Positions 5,738 to 29,408 of a stretch of 44,454 bases of DNA are shown here, piece by piece (within the stretch, counting starts at the first letter, position 1; every line of letters starts with the position of its first letter). The stretch is from NCBI GenBank assembly GCA_016869145.1, contig VGEU01000017.1, positions 1 through 44,454 on the forward strand, read 5' to 3'. A program made the translations under genes and the position numbers. The stretch is from Alphaproteobacteria bacterium (GTDB lineage Bacteria; Pseudomonadota; Alphaproteobacteria; MPNO01; VGEU01). The notes below the pieces were generated by a model, which worked only from the letters and a program-made list of their open reading frames with translations, had not been told where the DNA came from and did not search any database.

Positions 5738-7337
5738 ATGGCGTTCGCGCGCGTCGGCGAAGAATTCCCGGTCAACGTCTTCACATCGTCCAACCAGGAA
5801 CGACCCGTCGCCGTTCCGCTGTCCGGTGGCCGCTATCTCGTCGTCTGGCAATCGGGCACGCAGGACGGCAGCGGCAACGGCATCTATGGCCGGATCCAGA
5901 CCGCCGGTGATCCGCTGTCGGGCGTCGAGTCCGGGTCAACCAGGCGACGGACGGCAACCAGGAGACGCCGGCGCTGATCGCCCTGCCGACCGGCGGTTTC
6001 GTCGCGCTCTGGGAATCCCCGGACGGCGACGGCATCGGCGTGTTCGGCCGGCAATTCGACGGCAACGGCGCGGCGCAGTCCAGCCAGTTCCGGCTCAATG
6101 TCTTCGCCACGTCCAACCAGGAAGAACCGCAAGGCGCCGCCATCGGCGACGGCCGCTGGGTCGCGGTCTGGCAGTCGCTCGGCCAGGACGGCTCGGGTCG
6201 CGGCGTCGTCGGGCGGATCTTCGGTGGCGGTGATGTCGGCGGCGGCGAGGAGTTCGTCGTCAACACCAACATCTTCGGCGTCCAGGAGCGGCCCGTCGTC
6301 GCCGGGCTCAAGGACGGCGGCTTCGTCGTCGCCTGGCAGTCGGCGTTCCAGGACGGTCCCGGCTACGGCGTCTTCGCCCAGCGCTACGCCGCCGACGGCA
6401 CGCGGATCGGCGACGAGTTCCGCGTCAACACCATCACCGCCGGCCAGCAACAGGCACCCGCGATCGTCGGGCTCCCCGACGGCGGCTTCTTCATCGCCTG
6501 GGAGACGGAGAGCCTCGACGGCGACGGTTTCGCCATCGCCGGTCGGCGCTTCGACGCCGCCGGGCTCGCCGCGGCGCCGGAATTCCAGATCAACACGACG
6601 ACGGCCTCGAACCAGACCGACCCGCATCTCATGCTCACCGCCACCGGCGGTCTCGTCGTCACCTGGGAATCGAACGGCCAGGACGGCAGCGGCACCGCCG
6701 TCGTCGCCCAGCGCTTCAATCCGAACTTCACCCGGAACGGCGGCGAGATCGTCGCCAACACCTTCCAGACCTTCTTTCAGGAGAACCCGGCGAGCGTCGC
6801 GACGCCGTCGGGCTTCGTCACCCTGTGGCAGACCTTCGGCAAGGAGTCCGGCACCGGCATCTACGCGCAGGAGTTCGCCTCGAGCGACACGCTGCCGGTC
6901 TTCCGCTTCTACAACTTCGCGACCGGCGGACACTTCTACACGGCCGGCGCCGACGAGCGCGACCACATCCGCGCCAACATCGACACCTTCGTCTACGAGG
7001 GCGTCGCGTTCGGTGTGGCCGCCCAGCCGGCGACGGGAACCGCGCCGCTCTGGCGCTTCTACAACAGCGCGACGGGCACGCATTTCTATACGATCTCGAT
7101 CAAGGAGCGCGTTTCGTCCGCGCCAACTACGCGCAGTTCCAGTACGAGGGGAAGGCCTTCGACGCCTACGGCATCGAGGTCGAGGGCACGATCCCGGTGT
7201 GGCGGTTCTACAATGATCGCACCGGAACGCATTTCTATACCGCGAACGAGGAGGAGAGGGTCTTCGTCGAGGGCACGTTCGCGGAATGGAAACTCGAAGG
7301 CATCGGCTACTACGCGGAGCCCGTGTTCGCCGCTTGA
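5738..7337 (+). CDS. beta-propeller-like repeat protein with DUF5648 repeats (two frameshifts)
   Basis: Reading across two single-base deletions gives a 533-aa protein. The first deletion is near 5930, where GAG-TCC should read GAG-TTC-CGG. The second is in the T-run at 7112-7114, where the parallel repeat EERVFVEG shows that ERVFVRAN is expected. The N-terminal part has seven repeats of about 55 residues with the pattern FxVNTxTxxNQxxPxV, then GGFVVxWQS, QDGSGxGV and QRF, suggesting a seven-bladed propeller. The C-terminal part has three repeats with WRFYNxxTGTHFYT, the DUF5648 signature. No signal peptide is evident. Start ATG has GGAG seven bases upstream. Function unknown; a cell-surface or secreted binding protein is an inference. 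As sequenced it would be truncated at about residue 79. Confidence 0.75.
5765..6891 (+). repeat. seven coding repeats of about 165 bp
   Basis: Repeat units begin near 5765, 5930, 6088, 6253, 6418, 6583 and 6748. Each encodes F-x-(V/L/I)-N, then (S/G)NQ or QQ, a GG(F/L/R)-V-x-W-(Q/E)-S core and DGSGxGV. The spacing is a constant 55 codons except in the second, which is slightly shorter. This regularity fits one beta-propeller blade per unit. Confidence 0.75.
6892..7334 (+). repeat. three DUF5648-type coding repeats
   Basis: Three units of about 48 residues carry FRFYNFATGGHFYT, WRFYNSATGTHFYT and WRFYNDRTGTHFYT. Each is followed by a (D/K/E)ER motif and a (F/Y)xYEG or WKLEG segment. This is the DUF5648 repeat, found at the C-terminus of many bacterial surface and secreted proteins. 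A one-base deletion lies in the second unit. Confidence 0.8.
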
Positions 7338-9591: not shown

Positions 9592-9879
9592 TCAGAGACC
9601 TTCGACGATGAAGAACTGCGCCGTGGCAGCGCCTTCGCGCTGGCGCTTGGCCTCCTGGTATTCGGGCGAATCGTAGCACGCCTTCGCGGTCGCGACGTCC
9701 TTGAACTCGATGATCGCGATCCGGCCGGGCGGCGGCGCGCCCTCGAGGTTGGTCAACTGGCCGCCGCGCGACAGCATCTTGCCGCCGAACTTCGCGATCG
9801 CGGCCGGCGCGCGGTCGGCATAGCCCTTGAACTTGTCGGGGTTGGTCACGCTGAGCATGCCGATCCAATAGGCGGGCAT
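9592..9879 (-). CDS. DUF1330 domain protein
   Basis: This 95-aa protein of the dimeric alpha/beta barrel (ferredoxin-like) superfamily has the DUF1330 signatures AYWIGMLSVTNPDKFKGY at the N-terminus, GGKMLSRGG in the middle and ACYDSPEYQEAKRQR near the C-terminus. Members are small homodimeric cytosolic proteins of unknown function, often near catabolic genes. It lies downstream of mmsA on the same strand, 48 bases after its stop, so co-transcription is likely. The 165-base gap to its left (9427-9591) includes an A-rich run near 9496 but no gene I can support. Confidence 0.85.
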   Translation of the reverse strand: MPAYWIGMLSVTNPDKFKGYADRAPAAIAKFGGKMLSRGGQLTNLEGAPPPGRIAIIEFKDVATAKACYDSPEYQEAKRQREGAATAQFFIVEGL

Positions 9880-12728: not shown

Positions 12729-13631
12729 TCAGGCTAGCACAGCGGGTGGCGCCGGTCTCAGGACCCGGATCGTGCCCGGCGCGACGTCGATCTCGACGGG
12801 GAGTGCCGCCACGATGTCGCCGTCGGCCTGGACCGGCGCGCCGGGCGGGCCGTCGATCCGGACGACCCGACCCGGCACGAGGGTCACGTCGGAAAGCCGC
12901 GGCAATATCCCGAGACCGAGCGCCGCGGCGTAGCGGAGCGTCGCGAGCGGCCCGCCCCGCCGCGCGAGGCAGACCTCGAAACCGGGCGCGTCGATCCGCG
13001 CGCCGGGCGTGCAGCTGAACCGACCGCCATAGTGCCGACCATTGCCGACGACGACCGAGGCCGCGTGGTGGACGCGGCCGTCGATCGTCACCGTGAGCGG
13101 CCGATAGTCATGGCGCGCGAGCCGCCGGATCGCCTCGAGCATGTAGGCGTAGCGGCCGAGCCGGCGCTTGAGCGACGGTGTGACGGCGGCGACGACGGCG
13201 GCATCGAAGCCCGCGCCCGCCATAAGGAGGAACGCGCGGCCGTCGATGCGTCCGAGATGCACGGTCGTGGGCTCGCCGCGGGCGATCGCGGCGGCGATGT
13301 CGGCGGGCGAGCCGCCGAGGCCGATCTTGAGCGCGGCGACGTTCGCGGTGCCGAGCGGCACGATCGCGATCGGCGGCGCATCGGCGCCGAGCCCGGCGAG
13401 GGTCTCGTTGATGGTGCCGTCGCCGCCCGCGACGGCGATCACATCGACCGTATCGGGCCGCGCCGCCTGGGCGATGCGCGCCGCATCGCCGGGGCCGCGG
13501 GTCTCCTCGACCACGACCGCGCAGCCGGCCGCGGCGAGCGCGCCGAGGACCGCCTCGAAGCGCGCCCGGCGGCGCCGGCCGGCGACCGGGTTCAAGATCA
13601 CGAGTACGCGACGCGGACGAATGCTGGTCAC
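12729..13631 (-). CDS. diacylglycerol kinase family lipid kinase
   Basis: This 300-aa member of the DagK/YegS/BmrU family phosphorylates a lipid hydroxyl such as diacylglycerol, giving phosphatidate, at the inner membrane face. It has VLVILNPVAGRRRR at the start, the nucleotide-binding GGDGTINE (69-76) and PLGTANVAALKIG, followed by the C-terminal beta-sandwich domain with a VVGNGRHYGG segment. The start is GTG 13631 with only a weak Shine-Dalgarno. Its position about 2 kb from the plcP-agt pair is suggestive, because the phospholipase would release diacylglycerol, but it is divergent from the FAD gene and I see no Pho box ahead of it. Confidence 0.88.
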   Translation of the reverse strand: MTSIRPRRVLVILNPVAGRRRRARFEAVLGALAAAGCAVVVEETRGPGDAARIAQAARPDTVDVIAVAGGDGTINETLAGLGADAPPIAIVPLGTANVAALKIGLGGSPADIAAAIARGEPTTVHLGRIDGRAFLLMAGAGFDAAVVAAVTPSLKRRLGRYAYMLEAIRRLARHDYRPLTVTIDGRVHHAASVVVGNGRHYGGRFSCTPGARIDAPGFEVCLARRGGPLATLRYAAALGLGILPRLSDVTLVPGRVVRIDGPPGAPVQADGDIVAALPVEIDVAPGTIRVLRPAPPAVLA

Positions 13632-13717
13632 GCCGACGACCGGGTTGACGGAACCGCGCCGAGCGGGGCCGAATGGCCCGGTCGGCGGGGATCGCCCGCA
13701 GCGACCCGGAGATGGAC

Positions 13718-15463
13718 ATGACTGAGAGCGACGGACCGGCCGATACGACCGCTGCGGAGGAATTCGACGTCGTCGTGATCGGCTCGGGCGCCCCCGGCAT
13801 GGCGGCCGCGATCGTTGCCCATGACGCGGGGCTCCGGCCGCTGATCGTCGAGAGCGAGCGCTGGTTCGGCGGCTCGAGCGCGGTATCGGCGGGCGCGGTC
13901 TGGATCCCGAACAACCAACACGCCCGTGCCGCCGGCATCGCCGACAGCGCCGAGGCGGCGATGACCTATCTCCGCGGCGAGGGCGGCAACCGCGTGCCCG
14001 AGGCGATCCTCCGCGCCTTCGTCGACACCGGCCCTGACGCGATCGCCTTCCTCGAGGCCAAGACCGCGGCCCGCTTCTACGTGCGGCCCAACATGCCCGA
14101 CTACCACCCCGAGCGGCCGGGCGGCATGGCGACGGGACGGACGCTCGACACGTATAATTTCGACGGACGCCAACTCGGCGACCGGTTCGACGATCTGCGC
14201 CCGCCGCTCCGCCATTTCATGATCCTGGGCGGCATGATGGCGGGGCGGCCGGAGGTCTATCACCTCCTCCACATGACGCGCTCGCTGCGCTCGGCGACCT
14301 ATTCGGCCGGTCTCTTCCTCCGCTTCTTCCGCGACCGGCTCACCCATCGCCGCGGCACGCGGCTCACGATCGGCAACGCGCTCGTCGCGAGCCTCGCGAA
14401 GACGCTCAAGGACCGCGCGATCCCGCTCCGGCTCTCCTGTCCGGCCGAACGCCTCGTCGTCGACGGCGGGCGCGTGACGGGCGTCGTCGTCCGCCGCGAT
14501 GGGACCTCGGTGACGATCGCGGCACGGCGGGGCGTGATCATCGCGACCGGCGGCGCGCCGCACAGCACCGCCCTCGCCGACCGCCTCGCCCCGCACCGCA
14601 AGGCGCGCGGCCACCATTCGGCGGTGCCCGAGGGGAGCCGCGGCGACGGGCTCGCGCTGGCGACCGCGGTCGGCGGTCGTCTCGTCGACGGCAATATCGA
14701 CAACCTGTTCTGGACGCCGATGTCGCTCGTCCCGGAGGCCGACGGCACGACCCACGTCTATCCGCACATCGCGCTCGACCGCTCGAAGCCGGGCTTCATC
14801 GCCGTCGACGGCACCGCGCGCCGTTTCACCCGCGAGAGCACGTCCTATCACGACTTCGTCCGCGGCATGCTCGGGCTTGACGGCGGCCGCGGCGCGACCG
14901 ATCCGGTGTGGCTCGTCTGCGACCACCGCGCGCTCCGCCGCTATGGCATCGGGCCGGTGCCGCCGTTCCCGGGCCCCTATCGCGCCCGCATCGCCTCGGG
15001 CTATCTCAAGCGTGGCGCGACGGTCGCCGCGCTTGCGCGCGAGCTCGGGCTCGATCCGGCGACGCTCGAGGACACGATCCGGCGCTACAACGGGCCGGCC
15101 GCCGCGGGAGAGGATCCGGAGTTCGGCAAGGGTTCGGGTCGCTACGACCGGGCACTCGGCGATCCCGAGCACGGGCCGAATCCGTGCAACGCGCCCCTCG
15201 CGACGCCGCCCTTCTACGCCGTCCGCCTCCATGCCGGCGATCTCGGCTCGTCGATGGGTCTTGCCACCGACGAGCGCGCGCGCGTGCTCGACCGTGTCGG
15301 CGCCCCGATCCCCGGTCTCTACGCCGTCGGCAACGACATGAACGCGATCGGCGGCGGCAACTATCCGGGCGCCGGATCGACGCTCGGGCCCGGCCTCACC
15401 TTCGCCTATATCGCCGCGCGTGATCTCGCGGGTATCGCCGCGCGCAATCTCGCGAGTCGCTGA
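13718..15463 (+). CDS. FAD-dependent dehydrogenase (3-ketosteroid dehydrogenase/fumarate reductase type)
   Basis: This 581-aa FAD-binding-2 family flavoprotein has an N-terminal Rossmann motif VVVIGSGAPGMAAA, then ERWFGGSSAVSAG and WIPNN, as in 3-ketosteroid delta-1-dehydrogenases. The C-terminal FAD-binding motif is GLYAVGNDMNAIGGG followed by YPGAGSTLGPGL. Such enzymes dehydrogenate ring ketones or reduce enoates. The true substrate is unknown, and steroid use is not implied by the context. ATG 13718 has GGAG six bases upstream; an in-frame ATG at 13712 is possible. It is divergent from the lipid kinase. Confidence 0.85.
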   Translation: MTESDGPADTTAAEEFDVVVIGSGAPGMAAAIVAHDAGLRPLIVESERWFGGSSAVSAGAVWIPNNQHARAAGIADSAEAAMTYLRGEGGNRVPEAILRAFVDTGPDAIAFLEAKTAARFYVRPNMPDYHPERPGGMATGRTLDTYNFDGRQLGDRFDDLRPPLRHFMILGGMMAGRPEVYHLLHMTRSLRSATYSAGLFLRFFRDRLTHRRGTRLTIGNALVASLAKTLKDRAIPLRLSCPAERLVVDGGRVTGVVVRRDGTSVTIAARRGVIIATGGAPHSTALADRLAPHRKARGHHSAVPEGSRGDGLALATAVGGRLVDGNIDNLFWTPMSLVPEADGTTHVYPHIALDRSKPGFIAVDGTARRFTRESTSYHDFVRGMLGLDGGRGATDPVWLVCDHRALRRYGIGPVPPFPGPYRARIASGYLKRGATVAALARELGLDPATLEDTIRRYNGPAAAGEDPEFGKGSGRYDRALGDPEHGPNPCNAPLATPPFYAVRLHAGDLGSSMGLATDERARVLDRVGAPIPGLYAVGNDMNAIGGGNYPGAGSTLGPGLTFAYIAARDLAGIAARNLASR

Positions 15464-15532: not shown

Positions 15533-15550
15533 CTGTCACGAAACTTTCAC
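15533..15550 (+). promoter_or_regulatory. Pho box upstream of plcP-agt
   Basis: CTGTCAC, GAAA, CTTTCAC form two direct repeats of 7 bases with a 4-base gap, the layout of a PhoB site. Against the E. coli consensus, 15 of 18 positions agree by my count. A -10-like TAGAAC begins 11 bases after the box, as in PhoB-activated promoters where the box replaces the -35. Its centre is about 85 bases before the GTG start of plcP. Confidence 0.7.
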
Positions 15551-15597
15551 AATACAACATGTAGAACCTTCTTATTCCTCGAATACCAGATGCGCAT

Positions 15598-15606
15598 TGT
15601 GGATAA
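15598..15606 (-). promoter_or_regulatory. perfect DnaA-box match
   Basis: The plus strand reads TGTGGATAA, the exact complement of the DnaA box TTATCCACA. It lies between the Pho box and the plcP start. A single box in a GC-rich genome may be coincidence, or may let DnaA modulate transcription. There is no cluster of boxes, so it is not an origin. Confidence 0.4.
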
Positions 15607-15626
15607 CAAGGTATTCGGAGGAACAC

Positions 15627-16412
15627 GTGGGCATCTATCCGCTCCGCCCGACCCGACGATACCGGTCGATCTGGATCTCCGACGTCCATCTCGGAACCCG
15701 CGGCTGCCAGGCGGAGCTTCTGATCGAGTTCCTGCGTCGGAACGACTGTGACCGCCTCTATCTGGTCGGCGACATCATCGACGGCTGGCGTCTGCAGAAG
15801 AACGGCTTCTGGCCCGACACCCACAACGACGTCCTTCAGTGGGTGCTGCGCAAGGCCTCGGCCGGCACCGACGTCGTCTATCTCCCCGGCAATCACGACG
15901 AGATCGCGCGGTCGTGGTGCGAGCTCCGCTTCGGCGGCGTCACCATCGTCAACGAGGCGGTGCACGAGACCGCCGACGGGCGCCGCTTCCTCGTCGTGCA
16001 CGGTGACGAGTTCGACGCCATCGTCAAGCACGCGCGCTGGCTCGCCCACATGGGCGAACGTGCCTACCAGGCGGCGACGCGCTGCAACCTCTGGCTCAAC
16101 GCGGCGCGCCGGAAACTGGGGTTCCCGTACTGGTCGCTCGCCGCCTATCTGAAGCAGGTCGTCAAGGACGCGCTCGAGACCATCGACAAGTTCGAGCGCA
16201 CGCTCGCCGAGGAGGCGCGCCGGCGCGGCTTCGACGGCGTCGTGTGCGGCCGCGTCCACCACGCCGCGATCCGCCCGATCGACGGCGTGCTCTACTGCAA
16301 CACCGGCGACTGGGTCGAGAACTGCACCGCGCTGGTCGAGGACCATGGCGGCCGGTTCGAGATCGTACGCTGGGCCGAGCACCGCGCGATGACGCTCGCC
16401 GTGGCGTCCTGA
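15627..16412 (+). CDS. plcP: PlcP-like phospholipase C / UDP-2,3-diacylglucosamine hydrolase family metallophosphoesterase
   Basis: This 261-aa calcineurin-like phosphoesterase is often annotated as LpxH-like. In Alphaproteobacteria the version beside an Agt-type glycosyltransferase is PlcP, which cleaves phospholipids to diacylglycerol during phosphate starvation. Active-site motifs are DVHLG (Asp19, His21), GDIIDGW (Asp49), GNHDE (Asn89, His90), VVHGDEFD (His125) and CGRVHHAA. In the last, Arg209 stands where the usual GHxH motif has a metal-binding His. The start is GTG 15627 with GGAGG upstream. The glycosyltransferase starts three bases after its stop. A Pho box lies 77 bases upstream of the start codon. 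A role in lipid remodelling is inferred from these, not proven. Confidence 0.75.
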   Translation: MGIYPLRPTRRYRSIWISDVHLGTRGCQAELLIEFLRRNDCDRLYLVGDIIDGWRLQKNGFWPDTHNDVLQWVLRKASAGTDVVYLPGNHDEIARSWCELRFGGVTIVNEAVHETADGRRFLVVHGDEFDAIVKHARWLAHMGERAYQAATRCNLWLNAARRKLGFPYWSLAAYLKQVVKDALETIDKFERTLAEEARRRGFDGVVCGRVHHAAIRPIDGVLYCNTGDWVENCTALVEDHGGRFEIVRWAEHRAMTLAVAS

Positions 16413-16414
16413 GG

Positions 16415-17418
16415 GTGCGGATTCTGATCGTCACCGATGCCTGGTTTCCCCAGGTGAACGGCGTCGTGCGGACGCTCTCGACCGTCGCGGGCGAGCTCTC
16501 ATCGCTCGGCCATGCGGTCGCGTTGGTCACGCCCGAGAGGTTCCGGACGATCCCGTGTCCGACCTATCCCGAGATCCGACTCGCGGTCGGCGCGCGACGG
16601 GGAATCGTCGAGGCGCTCGATCGCCACGCGCCCGAGGCCATCCACATCGCGACCGAGGGGCCGCTCGGGCTCGCCGCGCGCCGCCTCTCCGCGCGCGCGG
16701 GCTTCCGTTCACGACCTCGTTCCACACGCGCTTTCCCGAATACGTCCATGCTCGCTTCCGCGTGCCCATTGCCTGGAGCTATGCCCTCGTCCGCCGGTTC
16801 CACGCCGGGGCGGCGCGGACCATGGTCGCGACCGAGACCCTCGCTGCCGAGCTCGCGGCGCGCGGCTTCGGCCCCCTCGCGCTGTGGGGCCGCGGCGTCG
16901 ACATCGATCTGTTCCGGCCGCGGCCGGGCGACTGGCTCGACCTGCCACGACCCGCCTTTCTCCATGTCGGACGCATCGCGGTCGAGAAGAACATCGAGGC
17001 CTTCCTTCGCCTCGACCTCCCGGGATCGAAACTCGTCGTCGGTGACGGCCCTGAGCATCGGCGGCTCGAGCGGCGCTATCCTGAAGCCCGCTTCGTCGGG
17101 GCGAAGACCGGAGACGACCTCGCCCGCCACTACGCCGCCGCCGATGCGCTGGTCTTCCCGAGCCTCACCGACACCTTCGGCAACATGGTCCTCGAGGCGC
17201 TCGCCGCCGGCGTTCCGGTCGCGGCGTTCCCGGTTCCGGGACCGCGCGACGTGATCGGCGCGGCGCCCGTCGGCGTCCTCGACCACGATCTCCGGCGCGC
17301 CGCGCTCGGCGCGCTCGCGGTGCCGCGCGCGGCCTGTCGCGCCTTCGCGATGGAGCGCACCTGGCGGACCTCCGCTCGCCAATTCCTCGCCAACCTCGCG
17401 CCCGTCGCCCCGCGCTGA
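16415..17418 (+). CDS. agt: Agt-like GT4 glycosyltransferase (one frameshift)
   Basis: With one deleted base restored near 16702 (GGC-TTC should be GGC-CTT-CCG) this is a 334-aa family-4 glycosyltransferase. The N-terminal domain begins RILIVTDAWFPQVNGVVRTL; the C-terminal nucleotide-sugar domain has FLHVGRIAVEKNIEAFL and the closing PSLTDTFGNMVLEALAAG motif with its conserved acidic residues. The closest functional match is Agt, the diacylglycerol glycosyltransferase paired with PlcP, although mannosyltransferases of the MgtA/PimB type look similar. It starts with GTG three bases after plcP. As sequenced the frameshift would cut the protein at its middle. No terminator is seen in the 81 bases before the next gene. 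Confidence 0.72.
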
Positions 17419-17499
17419 GCCCGCCTTTCGGGTGGACAGGGGCGCGGCGAAGGTCTACCCCCGCCGCATGATGCAAGCACCCGCCCGGCGGCCCGCGCC

Positions 17500-18723
17500 A
17501 TGAGCCGTCTCTATTTCTTCGCGTTCGCCCTCCTCCTCGCGTCGTTGACCGCGGTCAACCCGATCGCCATCGACACGATGATGCCGGCGATGCCGATGAT
17601 CGCCGACGCGCTGGCGACCGACGCGGCCTCGGTGCAGTACACGCTGAGCGCCTATCTCGTCGGCATCGGCATCGGCCAGCTCGTGCACGGGCCGGTCTCC
17701 GACCGCGTCGGGCGGCGGCCGATCGCGCTCGTCGGCATCGTGCTGTTCGCGCTGAGCTCGGCCGGCTGCGCGCGCGCAAGCTCGGTCGAGATGCTGTTCG
17801 CGCTCCGCGTGCTGCAAGGCTTTTCCGCCTGCGCCGGCCTGGTCATGGCGCGCGCGATCGTGCGCGACCGGTTCGAGCGCAACGTCGCGGCCGAGGTGCT
17901 CGCCTATGTCGGGGTGTTCCACAGCCTCGCGCCGCTGACCGCGCCGATCTTCGGCGCCTCGCTCGCGGTCGCCTATGGCTGGGAGGCGACGTTCTGGGCG
18001 ATGGCGATCTATGCCGCGGTGGTCTCGGTGATCGCCTGGTTCGCGCTGCCCGAGACCCATCGCCAGACCGAGCACGCGCGCTTCGGCGTCCTCGCCAAGG
18101 CCGCGAACTTCGCCCACATCCTGCGCAATCCGGTGTTCCGCGGCTATCTCGGCTGTATGGCGATCGCCTATGCCGGCATGTTCAGCTTCCTCGCCGGCTC
18201 GCCCTTCGTGCTGATCACTTTCATGGGCATCGATCCCGAGCGCTATGGCGTGCTGACGGCGCTGATCATGGTCGGCCATATCCTGGCGTCGTTCTCGGCT
18301 GCGCGCCTCGTCCGCCGCTTCGGCATCGACCGGCTTCTCGGGCTCGGCGTCCTCTTGACGCTCGCCGGCGGCGCCACGATGGCCGGGCTCGCCTGGTTGG
18401 GCATCGCGACGGTCGCCGCGGTGATGCTCCCGATGTTCGTCTACATGCTGGGGTTCGGCAACGTGTCGCCGACCTCTGCGGCGGCGGCGCTGCAACCGTT
18501 CCCGACCATCGCCGGCACGGCGTCGTCGCTGTTCGGCTTCGTCCAGACCATGACCGCGACGGTGGTCGTCGAGCTCACCGGCCTCTTCCACGACGGGACC
18601 CAGCTGCCGATGACGACCGGCGTCGGCGTCTGCGGGGCGCTCGCCGCGCTCCTCTATCTCTATGTCCGCGCCGTCCGGCGCCGGGGCGAGGTCGCCCCGA
18701 CGCCGGAGGCTTGTCGGACCTAG
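17500..18723 (+). CDS. MFS multidrug efflux transporter, Bcr/CflA type
   Basis: This 407-aa inner-membrane proton antiporter is of the DHA1 (Bcr/CflA) type. It starts with a helix containing NPIAIDTMMPAMPMIA, followed by the motif-A loop GPVSDRVGRRP. Alternating hydrophobic stretches suggest 12 membrane helices. Family members export chloramphenicol-like drugs or peptides; a native metabolite is possible. It begins 81 bases after the glycosyltransferase on the same strand and may be read from the same Pho-box promoter, though the gap could hold its own. It converges on phoX with only a few bases between stops. Confidence 0.88.
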   Translation: MSRLYFFAFALLLASLTAVNPIAIDTMMPAMPMIADALATDAASVQYTLSAYLVGIGIGQLVHGPVSDRVGRRPIALVGIVLFALSSAGCARASSVEMLFALRVLQGFSACAGLVMARAIVRDRFERNVAAEVLAYVGVFHSLAPLTAPIFGASLAVAYGWEATFWAMAIYAAVVSVIAWFALPETHRQTEHARFGVLAKAANFAHILRNPVFRGYLGCMAIAYAGMFSFLAGSPFVLITFMGIDPERYGVLTALIMVGHILASFSAARLVRRFGIDRLLGLGVLLTLAGGATMAGLAWLGIATVAAVMLPMFVYMLGFGNVSPTSAAAALQPFPTIAGTASSLFGFVQTMTATVVVELTGLFHDGTQLPMTTGVGVCGALAALLYLYVRAVRRRGEVAPTPEACRT

Positions 18724-18727
18724 TCGA

Positions 18728-20773
18728 TCAGCCGCCGATCGGCCCGCCGTCCTCGCGCGTGATGACGACCACCGACGGACGCGGCGGCATGCCGGCCGCG
18801 AAGTCGGGCCAGCGCGTCGCCGGCTCCTCGAAGCTCGACCGCTTGCCGAACGGCGGATAGTCGCGCGCGCCGTCGGCGGCCGGATGCTAGATGGCGAGGA
18901 AGAGCGTGCGGCCGTCGGCGCTGAACTGCGGACCGCACAGCTCGGCGCCGACCGGCACGCGGAAGAACATCTTCGCGTAGCCGCGCATCGCGCCTTCGGT
19001 CTCGAGGCCCCAGAGCCCGTCGGCGGTGCCGCTCGCCTTCTTCCAGGACGTGCCCTGATCGGTCGCGATCCAGAGGCGGCCCTGGTTGTCGAAGGCCATG
19101 TTGTCGGGGCAGGCGAACCAGCCGTTCCGCGACGTCGCGGCGTGATAGCGCGCGCCCACCGCGGCGACCGCGGGATCGCCGCAGCGGACCAGCATCTCCC
19201 ACGTGCCGCCGAGCGCCGCGTGGTCGTCGCCGGGCTGGGTCATCTCGATGATGTGGCCCCAGTCGTTGGCCGCACGCGGGTTCGCGGCGTCGAGCTGGTC
19301 GGCCTTGCGGTTCGCGTTGTTGGTCATGATCGCGTAGACCTTGTGCGTCCGCGGGCTCGCCTCGACGTCCTCGGGGCGGTCCATCCGCGTCGCGCCGAGG
19401 AGATCGGCGGCGCGCCGCGTCTCGATCATGACGTCGGCCTGGCTCGCGAAGCCGTTCTGCGGCGTGAGGGGTCCGGCGCCCCAGACCAGCGGCAGCCACA
19501 CGAACGAGCCGTCGGCTTCGTAGCGGGCGACGAACAGCGTGCCCTCGTCGAGAAGGCGGCGGTTCGCCTCGCGGTTCGCCGGATCGAAACGGCCGTGGCT
19601 CACATATTTGTAGATGTACTCGAAACGCTCGTCGTCGCCCATGTAGAGGACGACGCGGCCATCTCTGTTGACGATCGCCTCGGCGCCCTCGTGCTTCATG
19701 CGCCCGAGCGCGGTGCGCTTGACCGGCACCGCGGACGGATCATAGGGATCGATCTCGACGATCCAGCCGAAGCGGTTGGCCTCGTTCGGTTCCTTGGCGA
19801 CGTCGAAGCGGTCGTGATAGGCGCCCCAGTTGTAGCCGCGACCGGGGACGCCGTAGCGGCGATGGTTGCGCGCCTCCGCCGATTCGCTCGCCACCTCGCC
19901 CCAGAAGTAGAAATGGAAGTTCTCCTCGGCCGTGAGATACGTGCCCCATGGCGTCATGCCGCCGGCACAGTTGTTGAGCGTGCCGTTGCAGCGAAGCCCG
20001 GTCGGATCGGCCTTGGTCCGCATGCGGTCGTGGCCGGCGGCGAGGCCGGCGATCGTCATCGGCGTGTCGGCGGTGATGCGCCGGTTGAGCCGGCTTTCGG
20101 CCTCGATGCGCCAGCGTCCGTTCGCAGCGCGGGCGATCTCGACGATCGAGGCGCCGTGCGCGGCCATCTCGATATCGACCAGCGCGCGGGTCATGTTCTT
20201 GAACGCCATCTGCTTGGCGTCCTGCTCGCCGCCGAGGCCTGGGAACATCAGCTCCTCGTTGGTATATTCTTGGTTGACGCAAAGGAGCCCGCGATCGCCG
20301 CCATTGGACCCGACGGGCAACGGCGCGAAGCCGACATAGTCGCAGTTGTAGCCGAACTGCCGCGCCTGGGCGGCGGCGGTCTGGTTCATCGGGTCGAAGG
20401 CGGGCACGCCCGGCACGACGGGGTCGCCCCAGCGGAGAAGGATCTCGGCACGATGACCGGCCGCGACATGGTGGGTCTCGTCGACACCGTGGGCGATCTC
20501 GTCGAACCGGAAGCGCGTTTCGGGGCCCGCGTTCGCGGCGGCGCGACGCGCGGTCGCGAGCGCGGTCGGCCCGACGAGAGCCGTGATCGCGGTCGTGGCG
20601 AGCGCACCCTCGAGGAGCGCGCGGCGGCCATAGCGCGCGCCGATCACCTCGCCCATCGTGGGCGCGGTCGCGGGATTGCTCGGGATGTTCTCGGCCTCCT
20701 CGAGGATCGCCGATCGGCTGTGACCGGCAAAAGCGGGGTCGCGGCGAAGGGTCGGATAGTCCTTGCGACGCAT
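18728..20773 (-). CDS. phoX: PhoX-family alkaline phosphatase with in-frame amber codon
   Basis: This PhoX (COG3211) phosphatase is a calcium/iron enzyme that frees phosphate from organic esters in the periplasm. A Tat signal lies after a 49-residue lead: YGRRALLEGA (48-57) and a hydrophobic stretch to about 72. The family-typical segments GVDETHH, PVGSNGGDRGLLCVNQEY, MTPWGTYLTAEENFH and DNQGRLWIATDQG are present. The open frame ends with TAG at 18887-18889 after 628 codons, but the frame then continues for 52 codons with HPAADG, SSFEEPATRWPDF and PPRPSVVVITR, the conserved PhoX C-terminus, ending in TGA at 18730-18728. TAG sits where most homologues have CAG (Gln). The start ATG has AGGAGGAGAG; the Pho box is 48 bases upstream. 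Confidence 0.9.
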
Positions 20774-20821
20774 CGGTCTCTCCTCCTGCTGACGATGGCT
20801 ACGAACCCCTAGCCGAGCGCT

Positions 20822-20839
20822 GTTACAGGACGTTGACGG
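20822..20839 (-). promoter_or_regulatory. Pho box upstream of phoX
   Basis: On the minus strand the sequence reads CCGTCAA, CGTC, CTGTAAC: two 7-base direct repeats with a 4-base gap. The phoX-proximal half matches the consensus at all 7 positions and the distal half at 5 of 7. It lies 48 bases ahead of the phoX ATG, inside the phoX-purB divergent region. The following -10 is weak. Confidence 0.6.
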
Positions 20840-28238: not shown

Positions 28239-29408
28239 CCGGGCCGCGCCGCCGTCGCCTCGCCGCGGGCGCGCTCGCGCTCGCGGCCCTGGTGCTTTCG
28301 GCCTGCGCCGACCGTGACACCAATTTCTCGCAGTATCCGGGCTTCGCCGCCTATTTCGCGGCGAACCCGCCGGCGGCCGAGCCTCCCGCCGCCGCCGACC
28401 GGGCGCTCCTCCAGCGCTTCCGGCCGCGCACCTGGCTGCCGGCCGGGCATGAAGGCCCGATCGACTTCTACGCCGACTACATCGCGCAAGGGCGGCTCCG
28501 CGCCGGCGACGGGGCGGCGATCGCCGCGGCGGTCACGCCCGCGATCCTCGCCGCGCACAAGGACGACCCCCGCGCCGTGTTCGAGCACGTGCCGTCGGGC
28601 GCCCCGCCGCGGCCGGTCGTCTATGCGCGCATCGACCGCGAGAACGTGCGCTTACCCAACGACCCGGCCGGGGTCCGGCCGTTCGTCTTCCTCACCTACC
28701 ATCTCGTGTTCCGCGTCTCTTGCCTCCCCGATGGGCTCGCATGGTGGAAGGCGCTGCCGGTCTCGCTCGTCGCCTCGCTCGAGGACTGGCATCAGCTCGA
28801 CCACTACACCGCGGTCACGCTCGTCCTCGACGACGCATCGCGCCCCGTCGCGGTGACGGTGCAGCAGCACAACTATCTCCGCACATGGCTGGTCGGGCGC
28901 GAGTGGCCGTGGCCGGCCGACGACCGGATCGCGATCGACGTCGCGCGCCGCTCGAACGAGCTCTACCCGCACCGATCAGGGCGCACGCGCCACCGCGCGG
29001 TGCCGTTCCTCGACGGCGACAGCGTCGACTATCTCGTCGGCAACGGCGGCGCACCCTTCTTCGCCGGCGAGGACATCACCGATCCGGTGCGCGAGATCGA
29101 GGCGCCGCTCGTCTTCCTCGCGCCGGCGGACGCGTTCTACACGTTCAAGGGCTTCCTCGGCGAGAAGCGCCTTCTGCCCGGCCGCAGCGGCCCCCCCCGG
29201 CGCCGACTACAACACGCTGCCGCGCTACAAGCCGCGCGCGGTGCAGCTCGTCGCCTTCCACTGGCGCGAGGGCGATCCGCTCTATCCCGGCCTCGTCAAG
29301 CCGGGCGAGCGCGAAGGCCCGGGGTCGGGCACCGACCGCCTCGCCGCGCGGTTCTTCGCCGAATGGCAATGCGCGACGGCACGGATCGAGACGGCCTGCG
29401 CGCCGTAG
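28235..29408 (+). CDS. hypothetical lipoprotein (one frameshift, uncertain start)
   Basis: Reading across a C-run at 29191-29198, where eight C instead of the expected seven shift the frame, gives about 390 residues. The N-terminus has a short lipoprotein signal: an Arg-rich start, [12 protein letters not shown] as lipobox with the acyl-Cys next to ADRDT. The body is acidic and rich in [20 protein letters not shown] and [13 protein letters not shown] do not recognise a family. No ATG, GTG or TTG lies between the frame's preceding region and the lipobox; the nearest usable codon is CTG 28235, which overlaps the grxD stop. So the real start may be an unusual codon, or an indel hides it. Confidence 0.6.

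Follow-up and report, generated by a model that had tools for sequence, protein, structure and literature searches.

Operons in which plcP is followed by agt, with Pho boxes and glycolipid products, have been published (PMC4796936, PMC9239053, PMC8528852), and the placement of this gene pair under a Pho box is already established in the literature. Those of Methylosinus trichosporium OB3b, Pelagibacter HTCC7211 and Pseudomonas aeruginosa (PA3219-PA3218) represent the type 2 arrangement of PMC4796936. The locus described here shares with these three operons the gene order, the close spacing, the protein families and a Pho box ahead of plcP, while it differs in an arginine within the GHxH motif of PlcP, in a frameshift in agt (as assembled) and in a FAD-dependent gene which lies between dagK and plcP. 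The PlcP of Sinorhizobium meliloti has the five-block signature of its family in common with the protein studied here, except for block 5; in the S. meliloti record, unlike in our locus, no agt is annotated beside plcP. In that record (CP090106.1, L183) the sinI/sinR-bluB-plcP region, a chromosomal one, is found under the label plasmid pSymB, and the label looks wrong. As for phoX, the gene shares with known PhoX a Tat-type N-terminus and a Pho box ahead of it, differing in a stop which, as assembled, falls before the QHP motif; the PhoX of P. fluorescens (3zwu) matches the protein along the 628 residues ahead of that stop (E=1.3e-124). In two further genomes, G106 and G279, the same three genes are found within about 4 kb, phoX following agt on the same strand, whereas here phoX is convergent and an MFS gene lies in between.

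The window, that is, the whole stretch of 44,454 nucleotides analysed, forms contig C17 of an alphaproteobacterial genome of 3.93 Mb in 247 contigs, which is 99% complete and alone represents its family in the set of relatives used. At 15533-20839 it carries a block in which Pho box 1 is followed by plcP, agt and an MFS gene, with phoX and its own, weaker Pho box pointing towards them. The MFS gene and phoX are convergent; with the phoX frame extended to where its family usually ends, 4 bp separate the two genes. On the far side of phoX, outside the block, purB opens a purine gene cluster. This layout had been described in the first-pass annotation and stands, and the identities given there to PlcP, Agt and PhoX are borne out by family profile matches; as assembled, however, each of the three enzyme genes carries one severe fault, and none of these had been named.

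With a probability of roughly 0.8, we take this locus to be one of a known kind of phosphate-sparing blocks controlled by PhoB and, as assembled, either recently inactivated or misread, since PlcP carries Arg209, agt is frameshifted and phoX is short. The reading is founded on the gene identities, the two boxes, the presence of PhoB and the pst genes, and the conservation, among relatives, of plcP beside agt and of dagK beside plcP. When phosphate is scarce, PhoB would occupy box 1 and turn on plcP-agt, whereupon PlcP would strip the phosphate head group from phospholipids to leave diacylglycerol, and Agt would put a sugar on the latter to yield glycolipids. PhoB at box 2 would turn on PhoX, a predicted exported phosphatase releasing phosphate from organic esters, and the diacylglycerol kinase could turn diacylglycerol back into phosphatidic acid.

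The Pho boxes and their regulator

Both facing units are preceded by a 7-4-7 element, confirming what had been claimed for them: box 1 (CTGTCAC GAAA CTTTCAC, 15533-15550, forward strand) stands 76 bp ahead of the start codon of plcP, and box 2 (CCGTCAA CGTC CTGTAAC, 20822-20839, reverse strand) 48 bp ahead of that of phoX. A matrix was trained on the upstream regions of 100 plcP and 13 phoX genes of relatives, the window's own genome being excluded, and converged on TGTCA-n6-TGTCAT, the classical Pho box. Its spacer is AT-rich and favours AT-rich DNA, and hence the half-sites were also scored alone. Whichever 18-position matrix was used, box 1 came out on top of the 88,874 positions, and it ranked first or fourth when the half-sites alone were considered. 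Box 2 took rank 3 to 36 of 88,874, depending on the matrix, with 0.005-0.06 equal matches expected per 150 bp upstream of a gene. Box 1 thus stands far above chance, and box 2 is the weaker of the two.

The genome-wide scan for Pho boxes was carried out by pattern only. In the 3.93 Mb, CTGTCAYNNNNCTKTCAY, a pattern drawn with box 1 in view, was matched exactly by box 1 alone, while CTGTCATNNNNCTGTCAT with two mismatches recovered neither box. None of the other pattern matches in the genome (contigs C191, C189, C99, C62, C3 and C180) precedes a clear phosphate gene, and this holds also for a near-perfect direct repeat on C191 (L173:1261-1278), CTGTAAC ACAG CTGTAAC, behind which no such gene could be recognised. 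A simple sigma-70 scan gave no promoter match, which, like the three faults and the only moderate strength of box 2, counts against the reading given above.

The genome encodes a PhoB that scores over its curated cut-off and shares a contig with PstS, and phoR, pstSCAB, phoU and phoB are intact frames, the names being assigned partly from position and reading. Moreover, three half-sites with 11-bp spacing (CTGTCAT ATAG ATGCAAC ATAA CGGTCAT) lie ahead of pstS, so that neither the regulator nor a site for it is missing from this genome. Since each unit is preceded by a 7-4-7 box and PhoB is encoded in the genome, the case that plcP would be under Pho control via box 1 is strong, and the corresponding case for phoX via box 2 is moderate.

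Identity and state of the three enzyme genes

The plcP gene (15627-16412, forward strand; GTG start, 261 aa) encodes a metallophosphoesterase of the PlcP/LpxH2 kind (PF00149/PF12850). Over 250 aa it shares 47.6% identity with an S. meliloti protein whose gene lies next to sinI/sinR and which we take to be SMc00171, the characterised PlcP. SMc00171 is a Pho-regulon phospholipase C (PMC3596328). The family is recognised by the five blocks D..GD..GNH(E/D)..H..GHXH, LpxH having GNR instead of GNH (PMC3087551). The window's protein has blocks 1 to 4, with GNHDE as in LpxH2/PlcP, while its block 5 reads GRVH. In fact, codon 209 (16251-16253, forward strand) is CGC, for arginine, where all 110 relatives have histidine, the first histidine of the GHxH metal motif, and this is the sole private change of the protein in an invariant column. 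Descent from the PlcP/LpxH2 family is clear, the enzyme activity of this particular copy doubtful.

The first-pass annotation had taken the protein for PlcP rather than an enzyme acting on UDP-diacylglucosamine, and this choice is upheld. It is true that the PDB and NCBIfam matches of PlcP are LpxH proteins and that relatives are automatically annotated as UDP-2,3-diacylglucosamine diphosphatase. Nevertheless, the LpxH model gives only 34.6 bits against a curated cut-off of 190.35, which places the protein outside LpxH; the GNH block and the S. meliloti identity point the same way, the pairing with agt is conserved, and LpxI, encoded elsewhere in the genome, fills the lipid A step, so that the PlcP reading holds. 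A role as the lipid A enzyme LpxH instead of a phospholipase is largely refuted and we consider it highly improbable.

A GT4 glycosyltransferase gene follows plcP closely, as had been reported, and begins two bases past its stop, at 16415. As a single gene, however, agt does not stand, because its halves lie in different frames: an N-terminal part (16415 to about 16700, PF13439) and a C-terminal part (about 16690 to 17418, PF00534/PF13692), both on the forward strand and separated by a frameshift in the CG tract CGCGCGCGCG (16686-16707), whereas relatives have one frame. A codon-usage model which is blind to homology also placed a frame jump in agt, at 16707. The gene was intact in 99 of 104 rows compared, and the exceptions include two copies of the window locus itself as well as G279. 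In the latter (L147, on G279:C144), the agt of the plcP-agt-phoX run is frameshifted at 9639-9642, a site other than that of the window.

On the opposite strand, phoX starts at 20773, in agreement with the earlier claim of a PhoX phosphatase gene, and its full frame, including the codons past an internal TAG, covers 18728-20773 (PF05787, E=1.1e-161). Read from the translation, the N-terminus is of the twin-arginine, Tat type (RRALLEGALATTAITALVG). It is the C-terminus that fails, since the frame halts at the TAG (18887-18889, reverse strand), about 53 codons before the end of the relatives, at the glutamine of the QHP motif, for which 14 other genes have CAG or CAA. The codons past the TAG are well conserved. 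This conservation, the position of the TAG at a glutamine codon and the occurrence of TAG in both plcP and phoX of G007, a genome of the same order, would be expected if the lineage decoded TAG as glutamine, or suppressed it by some other means, and made PhoX at full length. Such recoding was rejected, and only a very slim chance is left to it: several ordinary genes of the window end at TAG, which looks the same in G007, where the columns that hold the TAGs have Trp and Pro in the window's genes; long frames otherwise contain few TAGs; and suppression would leave agt and Arg209 unexplained.

Neighbouring genes and synteny

The gene pair is widely conserved, agt being found directly behind plcP at 95 of 110 plcP loci. 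In the class, plcP was found in at least 163 and phoX in at least 160 of 387 genomes, and both together in at least about 97, a count taken from the listed matches. Among these, plcP and phoX are adjacent, besides the window's own genome, only in G106 and G279, which belong to one genus in another family of the same class and have a same-strand plcP-agt-phoX run; plcP is absent from the two remaining genomes of this other family. The proximity of plcP-agt to phoX, which had been remarked on as unusual, is therefore rare and not unique. Of the synteny that was to be looked for, plcP-agt is conserved, the MFS gene is not, and the adjacency of phoX is confined, outside the window's own genome, to G106 and G279 among the matches listed.

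The MFS gene (17500-18723, forward strand) lies 81 bp after agt and encodes a Bcr/CflA-type drug-efflux transporter (TIGR00710, over cut-off). Its co-transcription with plcP-agt, as previously supposed, finds no backing in synteny, given that no homologue was found behind plcP-agt at any other plcP locus compared, and its membership in the block seems doubtful. The MFS gene that is present behind S. meliloti plcP is no relative of the window's (29% over 78 aa), and the MFS gene was rejected as a conserved Pho partner.

On the other side of plcP, dagK (12729-13631, reverse strand) encodes a member of the YegS/BmrU diacylglycerol kinase family (TIGR00147, over cut-off). A divergent dagK is close to plcP (median 250 bp) at 53 of 103 loci, which supports the view of this kinase as a functional neighbour and the earlier guess that it could recycle diacylglycerol. 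Between dagK and plcP lies a 3-ketosteroid dehydrogenase-like, FAD-dependent gene (13712-15463, forward strand), which was absent from that position at all other loci compared.

Sequence error or recent decay

As assembled, each of the three enzyme genes carries one change that may be disabling, and it would be unsafe to take the block as working. The codon-usage model detects the phoX TAG in addition to the agt shift. By our own reading of its output, the remaining 217 kb of coding DNA sampled contain about 5 breaks of a similar kind. With such a background, one per about 43 kb, P is about 0.004 for two truncations within 3.84 kb. This clustering favours something special about the block, though an error of the draft assembly may still account for it.

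That the organism's block is intact and working, and that the draft, probably metagenome-derived, assembly misrepresents it, seems to us slightly better than an even bet. The genome lies in 247 contigs and has no close relative among the genomes compared, other breaks do occur in its sampled coding DNA, and the agt shift sits in a CG repeat. Moreover, the sequence past both the agt shift and the phoX TAG is conserved like that of a working gene, so that, were the lesions real, the loss would have to be very recent. What errors explain less readily is the density of the truncations and a PlcP change which falls exactly on a metal-motif residue. To recent decay, with the loss of the phosphate-sparing outputs only just behind it and Pst uptake kept, we give somewhat less than an even chance. 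In its favour, the lesions cluster in the block, plcP and phoX are single-copy genes with no backup, and the pst-phoB operon is intact. Within the same order, in addition, plcP is found in only 4 and phoX in 9 of 27 genomes, G007 has a TAG in both genes, and G009 has a phoX frameshifted and with a TGA; on these small numbers, the pattern would fit loss in the group. Nevertheless, both Pho boxes are intact, and the G009 case lies at the edge of a draft contig.

A wider proposal, that this lineage is in the course of losing its starvation-response outputs, lipid remodelling as well as PhoX, to separate single lesions, with Pst and the Pho boxes kept, is tentative and on balance unlikely. If the lesions are real, the joint loss of phosphate-saving outputs with uptake retained would suggest a niche rich in phosphate, and the locus would offer a natural test of how the outputs of a Pho regulon disappear. 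If they are errors, the lipid-remodelling module is an ordinary one, of use only as a further case of phoX near plcP-agt.

Some further damaged genes were observed. The G007 genome is a single contig, with one in-frame TAG in each of plcP and phoX (L014/L113, L102/L112), TAG being seemingly an ordinary stop there, and on G009:C107 (L108-L111) phoX is broken by two frame changes and the TGA at the contig edge. Within the window, apparent frameshifts are seen at 5931-7337, in the gene of a DUF5648 protein, and at 28256-29408, in a gene with no Pfam match. Elsewhere in the same genome, a thiamine-diphosphate-enzyme-like gene (L190:15071-16474) has a premature TAG and a nuclease-like gene (L195:11559-12509) a premature TGA, both forming part of the background of damaged genes.
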